Shown one piece after another: positions 2,101-7,892 of a DNA stretch of 49,511 bases. Made by a program: the position numbers and the translations under genes. The first letter of the stretch is position 1; every line of letters begins with the position of its first letter. Under the pieces are notes generated by a model. That model was given only the letters and a program-made list of their open reading frames with translations. It had not been told where the DNA came from and made no database searches. The DNA lies in contig WJIL01000052.1 of assembly GCA_014730275.1 (NCBI GenBank), forward strand, positions 1 to 49,511. The letters are read 5' to 3'. The stretch comes from Candidatus Lokiarchaeota archaeon (lineage in GTDB: Archaea; Asgardarchaeota; Thorarchaeia; Thorarchaeales; Thorarchaeaceae).

Positions 2101-2603
2101 AGTTTATTCACCTTAGCAATGGAACATACTGTTTCAGAGTATCACAGGGTGTCTCATTGACTATGGGCAGATACTAGCTTGAGGGTATTAAATCCTAACG
2201 AGAGAGTAACAAAAGAAGAGCTATATGTCATAAATAGCCTGATCTCTGTGATTCAATGAAAACCTTTGTTCGGGGTCAAAAACAAGCTACTTGATTCTGT
2301 TCAGAATCTGGAGGACATTTCCGAAATTGTGTTGGATGTACCTACTTTTTTCGTTATAGGCTGTAACTTCTTTGAACATAGCATCTTTTCTGGCTTTCTC
2401 AAGGAACCTGCTTGATGTTATCTCTTTTCTCCCGAACATGGCGAACTATAGATGTCTGCGTTCAGATTCTGAAAAATGCCGACTAAATGTCATTCTAATC
2501 ATATGCTACAACCAAATATGGAAATATGAAAAAATAAACGAGTCATCATCACAGCAGGGTTAAACATTTATGTCAAAAGCACAATCGCGTCTTGGAGCTT
2601 CAA
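2101..2603. other. Intergenic region between divergent genes
   Basis: About 500 bp without a convincing gene. The only open frame of note on the plus strand (2372-2563, 63 codons) has low-complexity composition, no ribosome site and no recognisable motif, so I do not call it. The region holds a TATA-like element for the minus-strand membrane gene near 2186-2197 and one for the plus-strand operon at 2561-2570. I see no tRNA, no strong hairpin and no repeat. Confidence 0.6.
2561..2570 (+). promoter_or_regulatory. TATA-like promoter of the longin/GTPase operon
   Basis: TAAACATTTA lies about 27 bp before position 2592, which would place transcription start near 2592. This supports ATG 2604, with GGAG at 2594-2597 as ribosome site, rather than the upstream TTG at 2592 as the start of the first gene. 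Confidence 0.45.
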
Positions 2604-3725
2604 ATGCCTGAAGGAGTCTTTGTTGTCCGCTTGGATGATATGCGTGGTTTCCTTGTTGAGGAGAAACACCCCACCACGCTGAGATTGAGTGAAAAGCTTC
2701 TGAATGTAATCTTCTATGAACATGAGACAGGCAAGAAGGAGCAGATAAAATTCTTTGAATCAGAAGGAAAAAGAATTGGCTCCTTTACTCAAATAACCCA
2801 TCCAGCGTGGTTTGTCTGTTTTATCCTCAGTCCTGATGAAGAACCGGAGATAATACGTGATCAGCTTATAGGTATGGGGAGACTGATTACCGAACTAGCC
2901 ATCGAAACACCGGATAAGCTCGATTTGGGACAGATTCTCAAGGAAGGCAGTACACTTCCCAAACGATCACAGGAACAGCTTTTCACGGAGATATTTACCA
3001 CACCATCCACTGCACTACTACTTGAAAGACTAGAAGATGAAAATGAAGGCGGATTGGAGAAGGCTGCTTCGCTTTCCATTTGGTTGAAAAACCAGGTCAA
3101 GAGTGAAGATATGGATTTGCGCGAAATCGTTAAACCCCTGATGAAATCTGGAGCAGTAGAAGTGAAAATGGTTGGCAAGGCTTCAGAAATGGTATTTCTC
3201 ATCAAAGATGTATTTGCCTACAGAGCACCCCCAGTTCAAGCACTACTGAATGTTGAGAATCAGCAGATGAATTTCGCCGAAGAATACAGACAACAAGTCA
3301 AGGAATTCTTCTCCCCCGAGGGGGAGGGAGGCTATAATCCATCATTGCCAGTAACAGACCCGAATTCTCCCATTTTGGAAGATAGACAAAAAATTGCAGA
3401 GATTATGGATAACATCTTTCATTACAGGATTATTGAAGCACTTCGGGAGAAGCCATGTAATGTGGAAGAGATTGTCAGTGAAACTGCTTTGCCGAAGAGA
3501 ATCGTCAGGGATTCCTTGAGAGTATTACGTAACAATCATATAGCAATTAATATTGGAAAAGAAGGTACATGGGCACTGCTCTCAAATCCTAGGATTGATT
3601 GTTTTATGCCGGAATTTGTCCTTCCAGCTGTAGCAAAAAAAGTTAGAAGCAAGAAAGTAAAAAGACAAGCTGCACAGGAGTACTTGGAGTTACTTATACA
3701 ACAATGGGAGGGTGAAAACAGTTGA
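2604..3725 (+). CDS. Longin-like/winged-helix protein encoded with a small GTPase
   Basis: A 373-residue protein that I cannot place in a named family. Residues 1-100 alternate strands and helices in a pattern compatible with a longin or roadblock fold: VFVVRLDDMRGFLVEE, a helix, then WFVCFILSPDEEP and a long helix. The middle is acidic and helical. Residues about 270-330 (REKPCNVEEIVSETALPKRIVRDSLRVL, read in two parts, then WALLSNPR) look like a winged helix-turn-helix. ATG 2604 is chosen over TTG 2592 because GGAG at 2594-2597 is well spaced. Its stop overlaps the start of the next gene by 4 bp (TTGA), which implies translational coupling with the longin-GTPase and probably a physical partnership. 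Fold assignments are inference. Confidence 0.8.
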   Translation: MPEGVFVVRLDDMRGFLVEEKHPTTLRLSEKLLNVIFYEHETGKKEQIKFFESEGKRIGSFTQITHPAWFVCFILSPDEEPEIIRDQLIGMGRLITELAIETPDKLDLGQILKEGSTLPKRSQEQLFTEIFTTPSTALLLERLEDENEGGLEKAASLSIWLKNQVKSEDMDLREIVKPLMKSGAVEVKMVGKASEMVFLIKDVFAYRAPPVQALLNVENQQMNFAEEYRQQVKEFFSPEGEGGYNPSLPVTDPNSPILEDRQKIAEIMDNIFHYRIIEALREKPCNVEEIVSETALPKRIVRDSLRVLRNNHIAINIGKEGTWALLSNPRIDCFMPEFVLPAVAKKVRSKKVKRQAAQEYLELLIQQWEGENS

Positions 3726-4591
3726 TACGCGGAGTATACCTTCTTGGGCCCCATAACAGCTTGCTTCATTCTAAGGAATATGTGGAGCCGGCATCAAGAG
3801 AGGCTCTCATCGACTTCTTGCTGAATCTTACGGAGTTTCTTTCAACACAGGATTTGGGAGACCAAATCGAATTCATGAATCTAGCCACTTCACGACTCTA
3901 TTACTCAGTAAATGGAGACTACACCTTTCTTCTTGTCGCAGACAAGGCAGACGATATGGAGCAAATAACCGAGAAGATTCAGCAACTGGAAACCGTCTTC
4001 ATGGAGAAATTCGTGCCGGTATATGAAGCCGGAAAAGCAATTGAAGGACTTGACAATTTCATAGATAGTCTGGCTGTAACGATGGTAAAGGTAGCGATTC
4101 TTGGTTTTGCAGGGGTAGGGAAAACCACGACTTTGCATCTGCTACGCGGGGAAACATTACCGCTGAAACATGATCCCACAATTGGTGTTACCATCAAGAA
4201 GCTGCCATCAGAAGTTGAAAATGCCAACATAGTGTTGTGGGATCTTGCAGGTCAATCACGGTTCAAAATCCTATGGGGTAAGATGATTGCGAATGCTCAG
4301 GTTGTTGTTATTGTCACTGACAGCACCCTCGAAAATGTACTTAAAAGCAAGAAACTGGTTGGCCTTGTTAAAGAGAAAGTACCGAATGCGAAAATCATAG
4401 GTATCGCCAATAAGCAGGACCTTCCAACAGCATTAACGCCTGATAGAGTTGGTAAAATACTCGGTGTTAAAACCTATGAGCTAGTAGCAATCGACGTATC
4501 CTATCGGGATAGGCTTATTCAAATCATCCGGAGGGCCATTTTGGAAGGAAAAGCTGAAGATTCTGGTGACGGAAAGAAGGCTGACAATTAG
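3722..4591 (+). CDS. Longin-domain / Arf-like small GTPase fusion protein
   Basis: A 289-residue fusion. Residues 1-120 (starting MIRGVYLLGPHNSLLHSKEY, with a central YTFLLVADKADD strand) match the layout of a longin domain, the fold found in SNAREs, adaptins and the SRP-receptor alpha subunit. Residues 121-275 form an Arf/Rag-type GTPase: P-loop GFAGVGKT (128-135), switch-I DPTIGVT (151-157), switch-II WDLAGQ (173-178) and NKQD (230-233). All nucleotide-binding boxes are intact, so binding and hydrolysis are likely. The Gln of WDLAGQ corresponds to the Arf/Ras catalytic Gln. There is no C-terminal prenylation cysteine or N-terminal myristoylation site. Start is TTG 3722, preceded by a strong GGAGGGTGA site at about 3707-3714. 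Asgard genomes are known to be rich in such GTPases and in longin proteins. One polypeptide carrying both suggests an intramolecular regulator. Confidence 0.88.
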   Translation: MIRGVYLLGPHNSLLHSKEYVEPASREALIDFLLNLTEFLSTQDLGDQIEFMNLATSRLYYSVNGDYTFLLVADKADDMEQITEKIQQLETVFMEKFVPVYEAGKAIEGLDNFIDSLAVTMVKVAILGFAGVGKTTTLHLLRGETLPLKHDPTIGVTIKKLPSEVENANIVLWDLAGQSRFKILWGKMIANAQVVVIVTDSTLENVLKSKKLVGLVKEKVPNAKIIGIANKQDLPTALTPDRVGKILGVKTYELVAIDVSYRDRLIQIIRRAILEGKAEDSGDGKKADN

Positions 4592-4686
4592 ATAAGACAA
4601 GATTAGCAAGACACTAGCAAAAATAATAAGAACAGTAAGACACGAGAAAACAGTAGAGACACTATCAACTGAAGGTGGATTATCCT

Positions 4687-5343
4687 ATGGCGTTTGACAT
4701 TGATGAAATTATGCAGAAACTAAAGGCAATTGAGGGGTTTGCCAAGAATGTATCTGAGACAAAAAAGCTTGCAGATGATTTAGCAAAGAATTTTGCCAGC
4801 ATGAAAACAGCACTGACCAATACTATGAACGAGAGCTTCACAGAGATAGCTCAACAAATAGAGGAACTGCGCAAGAACATGGAGCGCATGGAGGAAATGG
4901 GAAGTGTTGAAGCTGCTACCTCATCGGCGGAACCCACACCTTCACCGACCCCGGAGCCAACTCCAAAACCACCTGAACCAGAACCAAAGGTTGAACCAGA
5001 GCCTGAACCAGAACCAAAGGTTGAACCCGAACCAACCCCTCAAGAGGTTGAAGAGGTATCTGAAGTCAAAAAAGAAGAGCCAGAGGCTCCTCCCAAAGAA
5101 CCGACCACTGAACCAGCTCCAAAACCACCTCAACCAGAACCAGAAGTTGAACCAGAATCAGAGGAAGAAAGCGGCGAACTCGATCTGCTCCTTCAAGAAC
5201 AAGATCAAGTCAAAGCAAAGCTCACAGATCTTCGATTTGATTATATGCGTGGATACATTCCAGAAGACGAATACAAGGAAAAGGAGAGCGAACTGGATAA
5301 CAAGCTAGAGGAATTGGATAAGAAAATAGCAGATCTGAAGTAG
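4687..5343 (+). CDS. Coiled-coil protein with Pro/Glu-repeat linker
   Basis: A 218-residue protein in three parts. An N-terminal amphipathic coiled coil (about 1-75) is followed by a linker of roughly 90 residues built from EPEPKVEPEP-type repeats, and then a C-terminal helical hairpin (about 160-218). The hairpin contains DYMRGYIPEDEYKEK, similar to the short SHOCT-like turn seen twice in the protein at 23247-23849. ATG 4687 is preferred to GTG 4675 because GGTGGAT at 4674-4680 is a well-placed ribosome site. The gene lies 95 bp after the longin-GTPase on the same strand, so it may belong to the same unit, perhaps as a scaffold. No catalytic motif or membrane segment is visible and the function is unknown. 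Confidence 0.8.
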   Translation: MAFDIDEIMQKLKAIEGFAKNVSETKKLADDLAKNFASMKTALTNTMNESFTEIAQQIEELRKNMERMEEMGSVEAATSSAEPTPSPTPEPTPKPPEPEPKVEPEPEPEPKVEPEPTPQEVEEVSEVKKEEPEAPPKEPTTEPAPKPPQPEPEVEPESEEESGELDLLLQEQDQVKAKLTDLRFDYMRGYIPEDEYKEKESELDNKLEELDKKIADLK

Positions 5344-5437: not shown

Positions 5438-6385
5438 TCATTTAAGAAGATCCTTTGCTTCCTTTATGATTCGCTTGGCACCATCAACGGTTATGCCTTC
5501 AACTTTCTGCGCCACTTCTTCTGATTCGGCATCAGCAAGCGCCTTCACTGAATCATAATGGGCAAGAATCAAGCGTTTTTCCAAGGTTGGGCCAATTCCC
5601 TTGATATCAGAAATCTCAGGTACTTCTTCTCCTTCGAGTTCCTGTATCATCTTCTTTGCTTCATAAACCATATCAGCCGCACCCTTTGAACCAACCCCAT
5701 CTACTTTGTCGGCCAATTCATCAGGATCAGCTTCGGATATCGCTCTTACATTATCAAAGCCAGCATTTGTCAGACTATCAGCGGTCTTGGGACCAATACC
5801 AGATATTTCAGTTACTTTCAGATCAGGTCTCTCGGGAGCCTTCTTCTCTTTCTTCTTTGGTTTGGCCTTCTTTTCTGGTTTCTTCTTGGGTTCTTCTTCA
5901 ACTTCTTCAACAGCTTCGGGTTTAGGTTTAGGCTTCTTCTTTGCTTTCTTCTCGCGTTCTTCACGCTTCTTTCGAGCAGCCCTACCCGGTTTCACTGGTA
6001 CATCTTCTGTTGCAACATCAATGGCTGATTCCATTTCGTCGTTCATCAATGGTACATTCTTGATAGTGCTTGCCACGACCTCAATTTGCGGACTCGGTTC
6101 TTGACCCTGCTTTTCCATCTCTTCAGGCGTAGTATAGACACTAACACCTCCTTCATGAATAAAGGGTACAATTTCTCCATCATCCGCATACTCCTTGAGC
6201 ATTTTCTTTGCAACACTCATGCGTATATTGAACTTAGATGCTAGATCGTACGGCGTCACGGATTTGGCATTGAGTACGTAACTCTTGATATCTGAAGCGG
6301 TGTCATCTTTGGGGATAGCATCTCTGACTACCCGCTCTTTCTTCGCAGTTGATCGGCCCCATTTCTTCTTACTAATTGTGAGCAC
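5438..6385 (-). CDS. rps25e: Ribosomal protein eS25 fused to two helix-hairpin-helix domains
   Basis: Residues 7-86 match small-subunit protein eS25: a basic KKKWGRSTAKKE start, then the winged-helix core with SVTPYDLASKFNIRMSVAKK and a GEIVPFIHEGGVSVYTT end. Archaeal eS25 is usually about 100 residues, but this protein has 315. After a Lys/Pro/Glu-rich linker (135-188) come two helix-hairpin-helix modules: ISGIGPKTADSL...GVGSKGAADMV (191-245) and IKGIGPTLEKRL...GITVDGAKRII (257-312). Each carries the GIGP hairpin that usually binds nucleic-acid backbones. The GTG start at 6385 is immediately preceded by AGGAGA with unusually short spacing, so the exact first codon is uncertain. A TATA-like TTTTTAAGAA at about 6461-6471 (minus) is present. 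The fusion suggests eS25 with an added RNA- or DNA-binding arm. Confidence 0.85.
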   Translation of the reverse strand: MLTISKKKWGRSTAKKERVVRDAIPKDDTASDIKSYVLNAKSVTPYDLASKFNIRMSVAKKMLKEYADDGEIVPFIHEGGVSVYTTPEEMEKQGQEPSPQIEVVASTIKNVPLMNDEMESAIDVATEDVPVKPGRAARKKREEREKKAKKKPKPKPEAVEEVEEEPKKKPEKKAKPKKKEKKAPERPDLKVTEISGIGPKTADSLTNAGFDNVRAISEADPDELADKVDGVGSKGAADMVYEAKKMIQELEGEEVPEISDIKGIGPTLEKRLILAHYDSVKALADAESEEVAQKVEGITVDGAKRIIKEAKDLLK

Positions 6386-6494
6386 TCTCCTAAGATATTT
6401 CTAGAGGCCCCAGTAGAATACTAGGTCCTCTCGTTGAGGTCATCGCGAACCGTCGTTTTCATTCTTAAAAACATGCGCATAAGGAAGAGACAAT

Positions 6495-7784
6495 CTAACA
6501 GGGTTCCTCCTCACGCTCTGAAACTATGAGCTTCTGTTTCACGGAAACATTCTTGCGTGGAGGGATGTTTCTATCTATGACACATCCAGGCGAAATCATG
6601 CTCTCTTCCCCAATCTTCACAGCTGGGTAAAGAGAGGCGTTAACACCAATTACCACGTTATCTCCAATGATGCCACCAATCTTGCTCAAAGGCACCTCAA
6701 TTTTCTCATCACCGTTTTCAAAGAAGAAAGGTTCTGAGCCAGGCCTCCAATTCCACAATTGAGCTCCCGCCTCTATGCAACTGTTGGTACCTACCATAGA
6801 GTCGGCCACATATGTCATTCTGCCAACATTGACCTTCTCGAAAATCATGGAGTTTCGAATTTCAACAGAATATCCGATGTGAACGTCATCACACAGACAA
6901 GAGTAGTCTCGTATCAAGGAATTGTTCCCAATGTGAACTCTCTTGCCAATATAGAGTGGACCTCTGAGTGTGGTACCAGGGCGGATAATTGCATTCTCAT
7001 CTATGTATACTGGGCCTTCAATGACCACGTTCTTTCCGACCTCGACAGATTCGGCGATGAAACTGCCTCGTCCCTTTAATTTTCGATCCATTACGATTCT
7101 GTTTGCTTTCAGGATGTCCCATGGCCAAGTGAATTCAGCCCATTCTTTCTCCCAGACAGTACTAACGATTCGTCTTTCGCTCTTAATCATCTCTCCAATG
7201 GCCTTCTCCATCGTTTCATGTTCTCTTAGCATATCGAAGATTTCACTTGTGAACACAGAAACACCCGCAACGGCATAGTTGCTAACGTATCGCTCAGGAC
7301 CACCTTTTTCGACCAGTTTTTCAACACGTCCATTCCGTCCCATTTTGACCGTGCCAAATTGTGCGGGATTCGATACCAGTGTCACTAACATCGTCACATC
7401 CGCATTCATGTTTTCGTGATTGTTGAGCGTTCGTGACACCATTTCATCTTCTACGAGAACATCTCCATTCACCAGCAGGAACTCGTCTTCATCCTCCAAT
7501 TCAGGAGCAGCCGTTAGCATTGCATGTTCTACACCTTTCTGTTCGTGTTGCAAAACATATCCAATCTGGACTTCTTGATCCCCGCCGTGTTGAAAATGAT
7601 CAACAATTTGTTCCCTGCCATGCCCAAGGACAATGATGATGTCCTTGATTCCATTAGCCTTGAGGCTATCAATGATATATTGCAACACAGGACGACCAGC
7701 AATCATCAGCATTGACTTAGATCTATTGGCGGTCAACGGCCTGAGTCTTTTTCCTCTCCCTGCTGTCAAGACAAGAGCCTTCAT
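6495..7784 (-). CDS. Bifunctional sugar-1-phosphate nucleotidylyltransferase/acetyltransferase (GlmU-like, archaeal)
   Basis: A 429-residue cytoplasmic enzyme. The N-terminal half is a nucleotidyltransferase that transfers NMP to a sugar-1-phosphate. It has the signature LTAGRGKRLRPLTANRSKSM at residues 6-25, with metal-binding GD in LLVNGDVL. The C-terminal half (about 250-425) is a left-handed beta-helix with hexapeptide repeats such as VIEGPVYIDENAIIRPG and IGDNVVIGVNASLYP. This is the architecture of archaeal GlmU/ST0452-type enzymes making UDP-GlcNAc or dTDP-sugars. Start ATG 7784 is chosen because the nucleotide-binding motif begins there and CGGTG lies just upstream. An upstream GTG/TTG extension would add 23 unrelated residues. 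It may supply UDP-GlcNAc to the epimerase at 31639. Confidence 0.92.
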   Translation of the reverse strand: MKALVLTAGRGKRLRPLTANRSKSMLMIAGRPVLQYIIDSLKANGIKDIIIVLGHGREQIVDHFQHGGDQEVQIGYVLQHEQKGVEHAMLTAAPELEDEDEFLLVNGDVLVEDEMVSRTLNNHENMNADVTMLVTLVSNPAQFGTVKMGRNGRVEKLVEKGGPERYVSNYAVAGVSVFTSEIFDMLREHETMEKAIGEMIKSERRIVSTVWEKEWAEFTWPWDILKANRIVMDRKLKGRGSFIAESVEVGKNVVIEGPVYIDENAIIRPGTTLRGPLYIGKRVHIGNNSLIRDYSCLCDDVHIGYSVEIRNSMIFEKVNVGRMTYVADSMVGTNSCIEAGAQLWNWRPGSEPFFFENGDEKIEVPLSKIGGIIGDNVVIGVNASLYPAVKIGEESMISPGCVIDRNIPPRKNVSVKQKLIVSEREEEPC

Positions 7785-7892
7785 CACCGACACGCATTCC
7801 CAGCTGTCCGCATAACCAATATAACCTTTCGCAACACCCGCGAAGAAGAACAAGTGATTTCAGCTAGTATGTGTTGCATGCCAAAGCACGCA

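Follow-up and report, generated by a model that had tools for sequence, protein, structure and literature searches.

Where does translation of the gene for ribosomal protein eS25 begin in a Thorarchaeota archaeon, and what has been added to the protein that it encodes? Both questions arise from one open reading frame (ORF) in the window, that is, in the whole 49,511-nucleotide (nt) stretch of DNA analysed here, which forms contig C52 in a genome of 3.64 Mb and 99.5% completeness. The frame runs on the minus strand from 6385 to 5438, 315 codons from a GTG to a TGA. An earlier note, which left the strand unstated, had read it as eS25 joined to two C-terminal helix-hairpin-helix (HhH) modules, with the GTG as its start. 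Pfam, structure matches and an AlphaFold model agree on that composition. The start is another matter: comparison with relatives indicates that eS25 very probably starts at an ATT at 6376 instead of the GTG at 6385, so that the protein has 312 residues. This anomaly went unnoticed in the earlier note, and the conserved near-cognate start is a stronger and more testable result than the HhH fusion.

The evidence comes from the window's own family, Thorarchaeota (f1), represented by 47 genomes, 38 of which yielded eS25; locus L041 was left out of all counts as a duplicate, the same open frame as L067 (contig C56 of genome G210). Orthologues put the start three codons after the GTG, and there the window has ATT. 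Relatives carry a strong TAGGAGAG-like Shine-Dalgarno sequence, and 9-13 nt after its GGAG comes the codon that precedes S-[KR]-[KR]-[KR]-W-G. At this position the 38 genomes have ATC (21), ATT (8), TTG (3), ATG (3) or GTG (2), and L053 has a GTG one codon before the site. The window's rps25e accordingly spans 5438-6376 (minus strand), from the ATT at 6376-6374 to the TGA at 5440-5438, and the Shine-Dalgarno core GGAG (6387-6390) stands 10 nt before the AUU, a spacing that is exactly the same in 29 of the 29 ATC/ATT genomes. The GTG (6383-6385), only 1 nt after the GGAG, overlaps the Shine-Dalgarno spacer and is not conserved; 27 of the 29 have GTA at its site. Could these genes do without the near-cognate codon? 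In 22 of the 29 there is no in-frame ATG, GTG or TTG between the preceding stop and the proposed start, and the downstream methionines fall inside the winged helix, so that starting at one of them would destroy eS25; most family members therefore depend on the ATC or ATT codon. Starts of this kind occur in 9 of 13 genera, and on a tree built from the eS25 core and the upstream gene the near-cognate or canonical state changes six times, so that neither a single frozen accident nor a single faulty genome accounts for it. From this we infer that AUU and AUC are used as start codons in the cell.

Is such a start exceptional in these genomes? Around the 38 loci, the upstream nucleotidyltransferase begins with ATG wherever it was found (37 of 37), and the neighbouring genes for AlaX and an Arf-like GTPase begin with ATG, GTG or TTG in 25 of 25 and 23 of 23 cases found, respectively. 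A set of 158 loci supplied ribosomal genes, which we take from their sequences to be uL14, uL24, uS13 and uS4, canonical in 30 of 30 each, and eS4, uL29 and eS26, canonical in 29 of 29 each. The genuine control sets were chosen by eye as those with a sharp rise in conservation at the start column and a recognised ribosomal or neighbour protein; the clusters also take in ORFs that are antisense or of low complexity, for which the start column is meaningless. No ATT or ATC start occurs in the sets judged genuine, among the neighbours or the 158 loci. In the genuine sets of the 158 loci the odd rows are an ACG in AlaX (1 of 34), GGT in uS17 (2 of 30), an ACA and an ACT among 29 RNase P subunits, and a TCA and a GAG among 27 uS11 genes. 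ATT or ATC does appear in clusters that were set aside: four without a conservation rise (38, 35, 31 and 23 rows), a 12-row cluster with one ATC, and the 38-row eS25 cluster itself, where an internal Met column had been chosen. The clearly conserved sets from 20 regions of 10 genomes are likewise almost all canonical; set aside there were an 8-row set of flat conservation with three ATC and two ATT, and a 9-row and an 11-row set with one ATC or ATT each. In the eS25 genes of other Asgard families, ATG, GTG or TTG stands near the expected place in all 26 that were read, of 30 loci.

The other gene that avoids AUG is that for the initiation factor aIF1. In the family it starts with GTG in 19 and with CTG in 10 of the 29 loci read (of 30, L112-L141), and with ATG in none; two g1 loci (L135 and L138) have CTG, plus a GTG four codons earlier, and lack a GGAG at the usual place. 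In other Asgard families 27 of 30 aIF1 loci were read, and 23 have ATG or GTG, while L261, L266, L268 and L270 (families f3 and f4) have no in-frame ATG, GTG or TTG and show an ATA after GGAGG. Archaeal aIF1, the gatekeeper of start-codon choice, is reported to promote discrimination against start codons that are not canonical (PMC6237735). The eS26 gene starts with TTG in 20 of 29 (loci L172-L201), and several family genomes, for example G194, G195, G196, G203 and G210, have two eS26 matches.

What does the gene encode? In Pfam, Ribosomal_S25 (PF03297) matches residues 6-85 (E 4.7e-12, 46.3-46.5 bits, cut-off 28.8) and HHH_5 matches twice within the C-terminal 125 residues (82.3 bits, cut-off 27, E 3.3e-23). 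The parts of the protein, all on the minus strand, are the eS25 winged-helix core (residues 3-82; 6131-6370), a helical extension conserved in the family (91-150; 5927-6106), a disordered linker rich in Lys, Glu and Pro (151-184; 5825-5926), and HHH_5 modules 1 (185-247; 5636-5824) and 2 (248-312; 5441-5635). Each module has a GxGP hairpin (GIGPKTA and GIGPTLE); the second hairpin is GVGS in module 1 and a degenerate GITV in module 2. Among solved structures compared by sequence, the first part matches eS25 chains; the second matches Topo V, RadA and haloarchaeal eL32. An AlphaFold model built on 37 aligned relatives has a block-mean predicted local distance difference test score (pLDDT) of 80-91 over residues 21-90, a confident winged helix, and of 83-96 from residue 191, two confident HhH modules. 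The helical stretch to about residue 146 is moderately confident, and residues 150-181 are disordered, with pLDDT below 50. The earlier note, which had named structure prediction as a check, was right in expecting a flexible tail. The top 50 Foldseek matches of the model are mostly ribosome entries, with about 62-88 columns matched and template modelling (TM) scores of the target mostly 0.64-0.82. Of two PF03297 matches in the host genome only that of the window passes the cut-off; the second was rejected as an eS25, being a winged-helix membrane protein below the cut-off. Judged by its sequence, then, the ORF encodes the genuine small-subunit protein eS25 of this archaeon, as had been supposed, and the only credible one in the genome.

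Does the extension belong to this gene or to its family? PF03297 has a match in 184 of 227 Asgard genomes, among them 38 of the 47 in the family. A search with a family profile again gave eS25 in 38, including all 13 genomes with completeness of at least 90% and contamination of at most 5%; the nine family genomes in which no eS25 was found include none of these 13. Ribosomal_S25 is matched in 37 of 37 members scanned. The 31 full-length family proteins all have 233-348 residues, counted from the proposed start; among the non-family Asgard rows listed, open frames reach at most 200 residues, and the longest (G083) has a Lys/Glu-rich tail without HhH. Three layers are seen in the alignment: a segment conserved throughout the family, EEVASSVP..VITEEMD.ALAAA..VKPSKLARKRREAGEKKER..RPEVVVEPLE; a histone-H1-like arm of Lys, Ala, Pro and Glu, variable in length; and a tip, which has one or two HhH modules or none. 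HHH_5 is found in 9 of the 37 members scanned, which are also 9 of the 31 full-length ones, since the six members truncated at a contig end include no carrier; the count leaves aside the second half of the G184 protein, which lies on another contig (C29). By eye, two modules are present in the window, L042 and L071, and one in L048, L049, L050, L054, L055 and L061. About five changes of HhH state on the tree imply that the tip was gained or lost repeatedly. On these alignments the long tail reads as a trait of the whole family and the HhH modules as optional, and the condition that the earlier note had named as refuting, lack of the extension in all relatives, does not hold. Chance and an assembly artefact are excluded by an independent genus-mate (G218, locus L042), which has the same 312-residue protein, 95% identical to that of the window. 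Between these two, the nonsynonymous rate (dN) is below the synonymous rate (dS) in every region, with dN/dS pairs of 0.03/0.70 in the core, 0.014/0.073 in HhH-1 and 0.027/0.171 in HhH-2. It may also be noted that dS is much lower in the linker (0.05) and HhH-1 (0.07), together 5636-5926 on the minus strand, than in the core (0.70); recent gene conversion or constraint at the nucleotide level are possible causes.

How might an elongated eS25 and a near-cognate start belong together? The AUU start of bacterial infC and the poor, weak start context of eukaryotic eIF1 serve autoregulation of genes for translation initiation. Papers on these two systems stand as references 43 and 39 in PMC9845219. 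The explanation that we favour, at a little better than an even chance taken as a whole, is an eS25 with a sampling arm, whose AUU start couples its output to the stringency of initiation. The winged-helix core would sit on the 30S head, as family structures suggest. In this lineage it has gained the helical segment, which is conserved, and a long arm rich in Lys, with one or two HhH modules on the tip in some genera. The arm may be a tether on the ribosome head that makes sampling contacts with rRNA, mRNA or a partner bound to nucleic acid. Synthesis would begin at the near-cognate AUU behind a strong Shine-Dalgarno sequence. Initiation at AUU would depend on how strict start-codon proofreading is, so that eS25 output would be kept low and coupled to stringency, much as for infC and eIF1. 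As in those genes, a start that proofreading would reject is found in a gene of the initiation apparatus, and here it is conserved together with a strong Shine-Dalgarno sequence (AUC or AUU at GGAG plus 10 nt in 29 of 38) and is exceptional against the genuine control genes, aIF1 being the other gene to avoid AUG. Unlike them, the gene is for an archaeal ribosomal protein, AUC is used as well as AUU, and the feedback is one that we infer. More tentative, at somewhat short of an even chance, is the idea of an Asgard feedback on start-codon stringency in which eS25 would be made from AUU or AUC and aIF1 from GUG or CUG in Thorarchaeota, with aIF1 from AUA in two other Asgard families.

Several observations weigh against this explanation. 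Seven of the 29 ATC/ATT genomes have an in-frame canonical codon upstream, namely the window (GTG 6385), L042, L046, L048, L062, L066 and L072, and in L042, L048 and L072 it lies two codons before the proposed start, at a spacing of 4. An AUU, in principle also a start, stands at codon -2 in 23 of the 29; distances from GGAG to the start in control genes are mostly 6 and 9-11, with none at 4, which speaks against the earlier AUU. Nor is the near-cognate start obligatory, as 9 of the 38 genomes use ATG, GTG or TTG. Folding of the leader is not significant in any of five stretches (z -1.0, -0.9, -1.5, 0.2 and 0.6). The HhH modules are acidic, with net charges of -6 and -5, and are missing from 22 of the 31 full-length relatives. 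The same facts, with one of four hairpins degenerate, weigh on part of what the earlier note had made of the protein: its identity as ribosomal eS25, the flexible tail and the HhH tip are supported, and the binding of DNA or RNA is at most a possible role, the acidity arguing against simple unspecific binding of nucleic acid. The tail is also not the mere linker that had been supposed, the family-wide feature being the conserved segment with the Lys-rich tail. Finally, in human cells, as reported in the available text of PMC12084008, translation that begins at ACG is reduced when RPS25 or RPS26 is silenced. These data suggest that RPS25 promotes non-AUG initiation, and then the loop would be positive instead of negative. 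In Saccharolobus the N-terminal tail of eS25 contacts uS13 near the P-site tRNA, and two N-terminal glycines are strongly conserved in archaeal eS25, so far as the available text of PMC11698992 goes; the window protein begins (M)SKKKWG and lacks these glycines, so that this contact may differ.

Might all of this be plain domain accretion? An ordinary eS25 would then carry a near-neutral tail and HhH ornaments, and a weak AUU or AUC start would set low expression with no feedback. The scattered occurrence of HhH (9 of 31, about five changes), the great differences in tail length and the drift of the start codon among AUC, AUU, UUG, GUG and AUG, with ten changes on the tree, are what such a history would leave. 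It accounts poorly, however, for the conservation of residues 91-150 throughout the family, and for the recurrence of AUC and AUU starts across 9 of 13 genera, with none seen in neighbouring or other ribosomal genes; the weakest of starts is also odd for a protein of which every ribosome needs one copy. We regard accretion as rather unlikely. A role for the HhH tip in tethering the 30S head to transcription or to the nucleoid, for transcription-translation coupling or ribosome positioning in the manner of the HhH repeats of NusA and the C-terminal domain of RpoA, seems to us improbable. The only Foldseek match below E 0.001, and the best, is to chain NA of the E. coli coupling complex 8y5l (E 9.2e-4), a chain which we take to be NusA; NCBIfam ties the HhH region to NusA C-terminal repeats, RadA and Topo I, and acidic modules are compatible with protein contact. 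That match is nevertheless weak (TM 0.19/0.12) and generic to HhH, and most relatives have no HhH at all. Least probable is a non-ribosomal, winged-helix/HhH DNA-binding regulator derived from eS25, for which one might cite that HhH is mostly a DNA-repair module and that the best NCBIfam S25e equivalog score is 38.2 bits against a cut-off of 83 (these being naming models, not family-defining ones), but which is at odds with a sole eS25 over the Pfam cut-off in a nearly complete genome, with eS25 in 13 of 13 good family genomes and with a core model that matches ribosomal eS25 chains.

Directly upstream of rps25e, in 38 of 38 family loci, lies the gene for the GlmU/eIF2B-like nucleotidyltransferase (6495-7853, minus). 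Between the two genes, on the same strand, are a TATA-like box TTTTTAAG (6464-6471), mostly CTTTAAAAG in relatives and a putative promoter element, and 14 nt after it a conserved TTCGCG (6444-6449), the probable region of transcription start. An upstream ORF beginning ATGAGCATCTTT (MSIFKS..) was considered as coding and rejected: in most genomes its reading frame does not stay open as far as eS25, and with the constant 14 nt from CTTTAAAAG to TTCGCG this fits a TATA box better than coding sequence. A leaderless start at the RTGA after TTCGCG was also rejected, as that frame ends before eS25 in the loci read by eye. The leader of the window's genus alone (window and L042) contains a hairpin (6403-6431, minus), an insertion of about 29 nt with a strong fold. 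Rfam gave no matches across the whole window, and a scan for sigma-70 promoters and terminators, with models not apt for archaea, stayed at chance level. Beside eS25 and convergent with it is a cassette (2592-5343, plus) kept in many relatives, which encodes a helix-turn-helix protein, an Arf-like GTPase that has an N-terminal domain, and a coiled-coil protein whose middle is rich in Pro and Glu and which matches CdvA weakly, below the cut-off.

How new is such a protein? With other eS25 (RPS25) proteins it shares the winged-helix core, a KKW motif near the N-terminus and its occurrence as a sole copy. It differs in about 220 extra C-terminal residues, comprising the family-specific segment, the Lys-rich arm and two HhH modules, in the AUU start and in the missing glycines. 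HhH on ribosomal proteins has precedents in haloarchaeal eL32 (PRK12766; 1jj2 chain X) and bacterial bL21 (PRK12278), the models of both having HhH sequence in common with the window protein; those are large-subunit proteins, whereas here HhH ends a Lys-rich arm on a protein of the small-subunit head. HhH on eS25 seems to be new. The closest HhH sequences to the modules are those of the RadA/Rad51 N-terminus and of the Topo V arrays, which belong to enzymes of DNA recombination and to a topoisomerase and have only HhH in common with the window eS25. An array resembling that of Topo V was seen on contig C38 of G000 (L252, 4659-7508, minus), where seven HHH_5 domains precede a Topoisomerase VI subunit A (Spo11-type Toprim) adjoining subunit B. 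In the literature we found no report of an extended eS25, of HhH modules on this protein or of AUU or AUC starts in archaeal ribosomal genes; the search covered few subscription papers and no bioRxiv preprints and is weak evidence of novelty.

What would these features mean for the family? By the available text of PMC11698992, eS25 is one of three small-subunit proteins common to TACK archaea, Asgard archaea and eukaryotes and not to other archaea. In this lineage an arm bearing HhH modules has been added to a protein of the small-subunit head. The lineage also carries a warning, in that automatic gene callers misplace the rps25e start, at the GTG in the present case, or truncate the protein in relatives. 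An eS25 lineage with a near-cognate start is, moreover, a natural test of whether eS25 controls the choice of start codon. If the proposed feedback is real, the levels of eS25 and aIF1 would report looseness of start-codon choice and correct it, and Asgard archaea would possess an archaeal counterpart of the autoregulation of infC and eIF1, one that also takes in a ribosomal protein which eukaryotes have too and which is linked there to non-AUG initiation.
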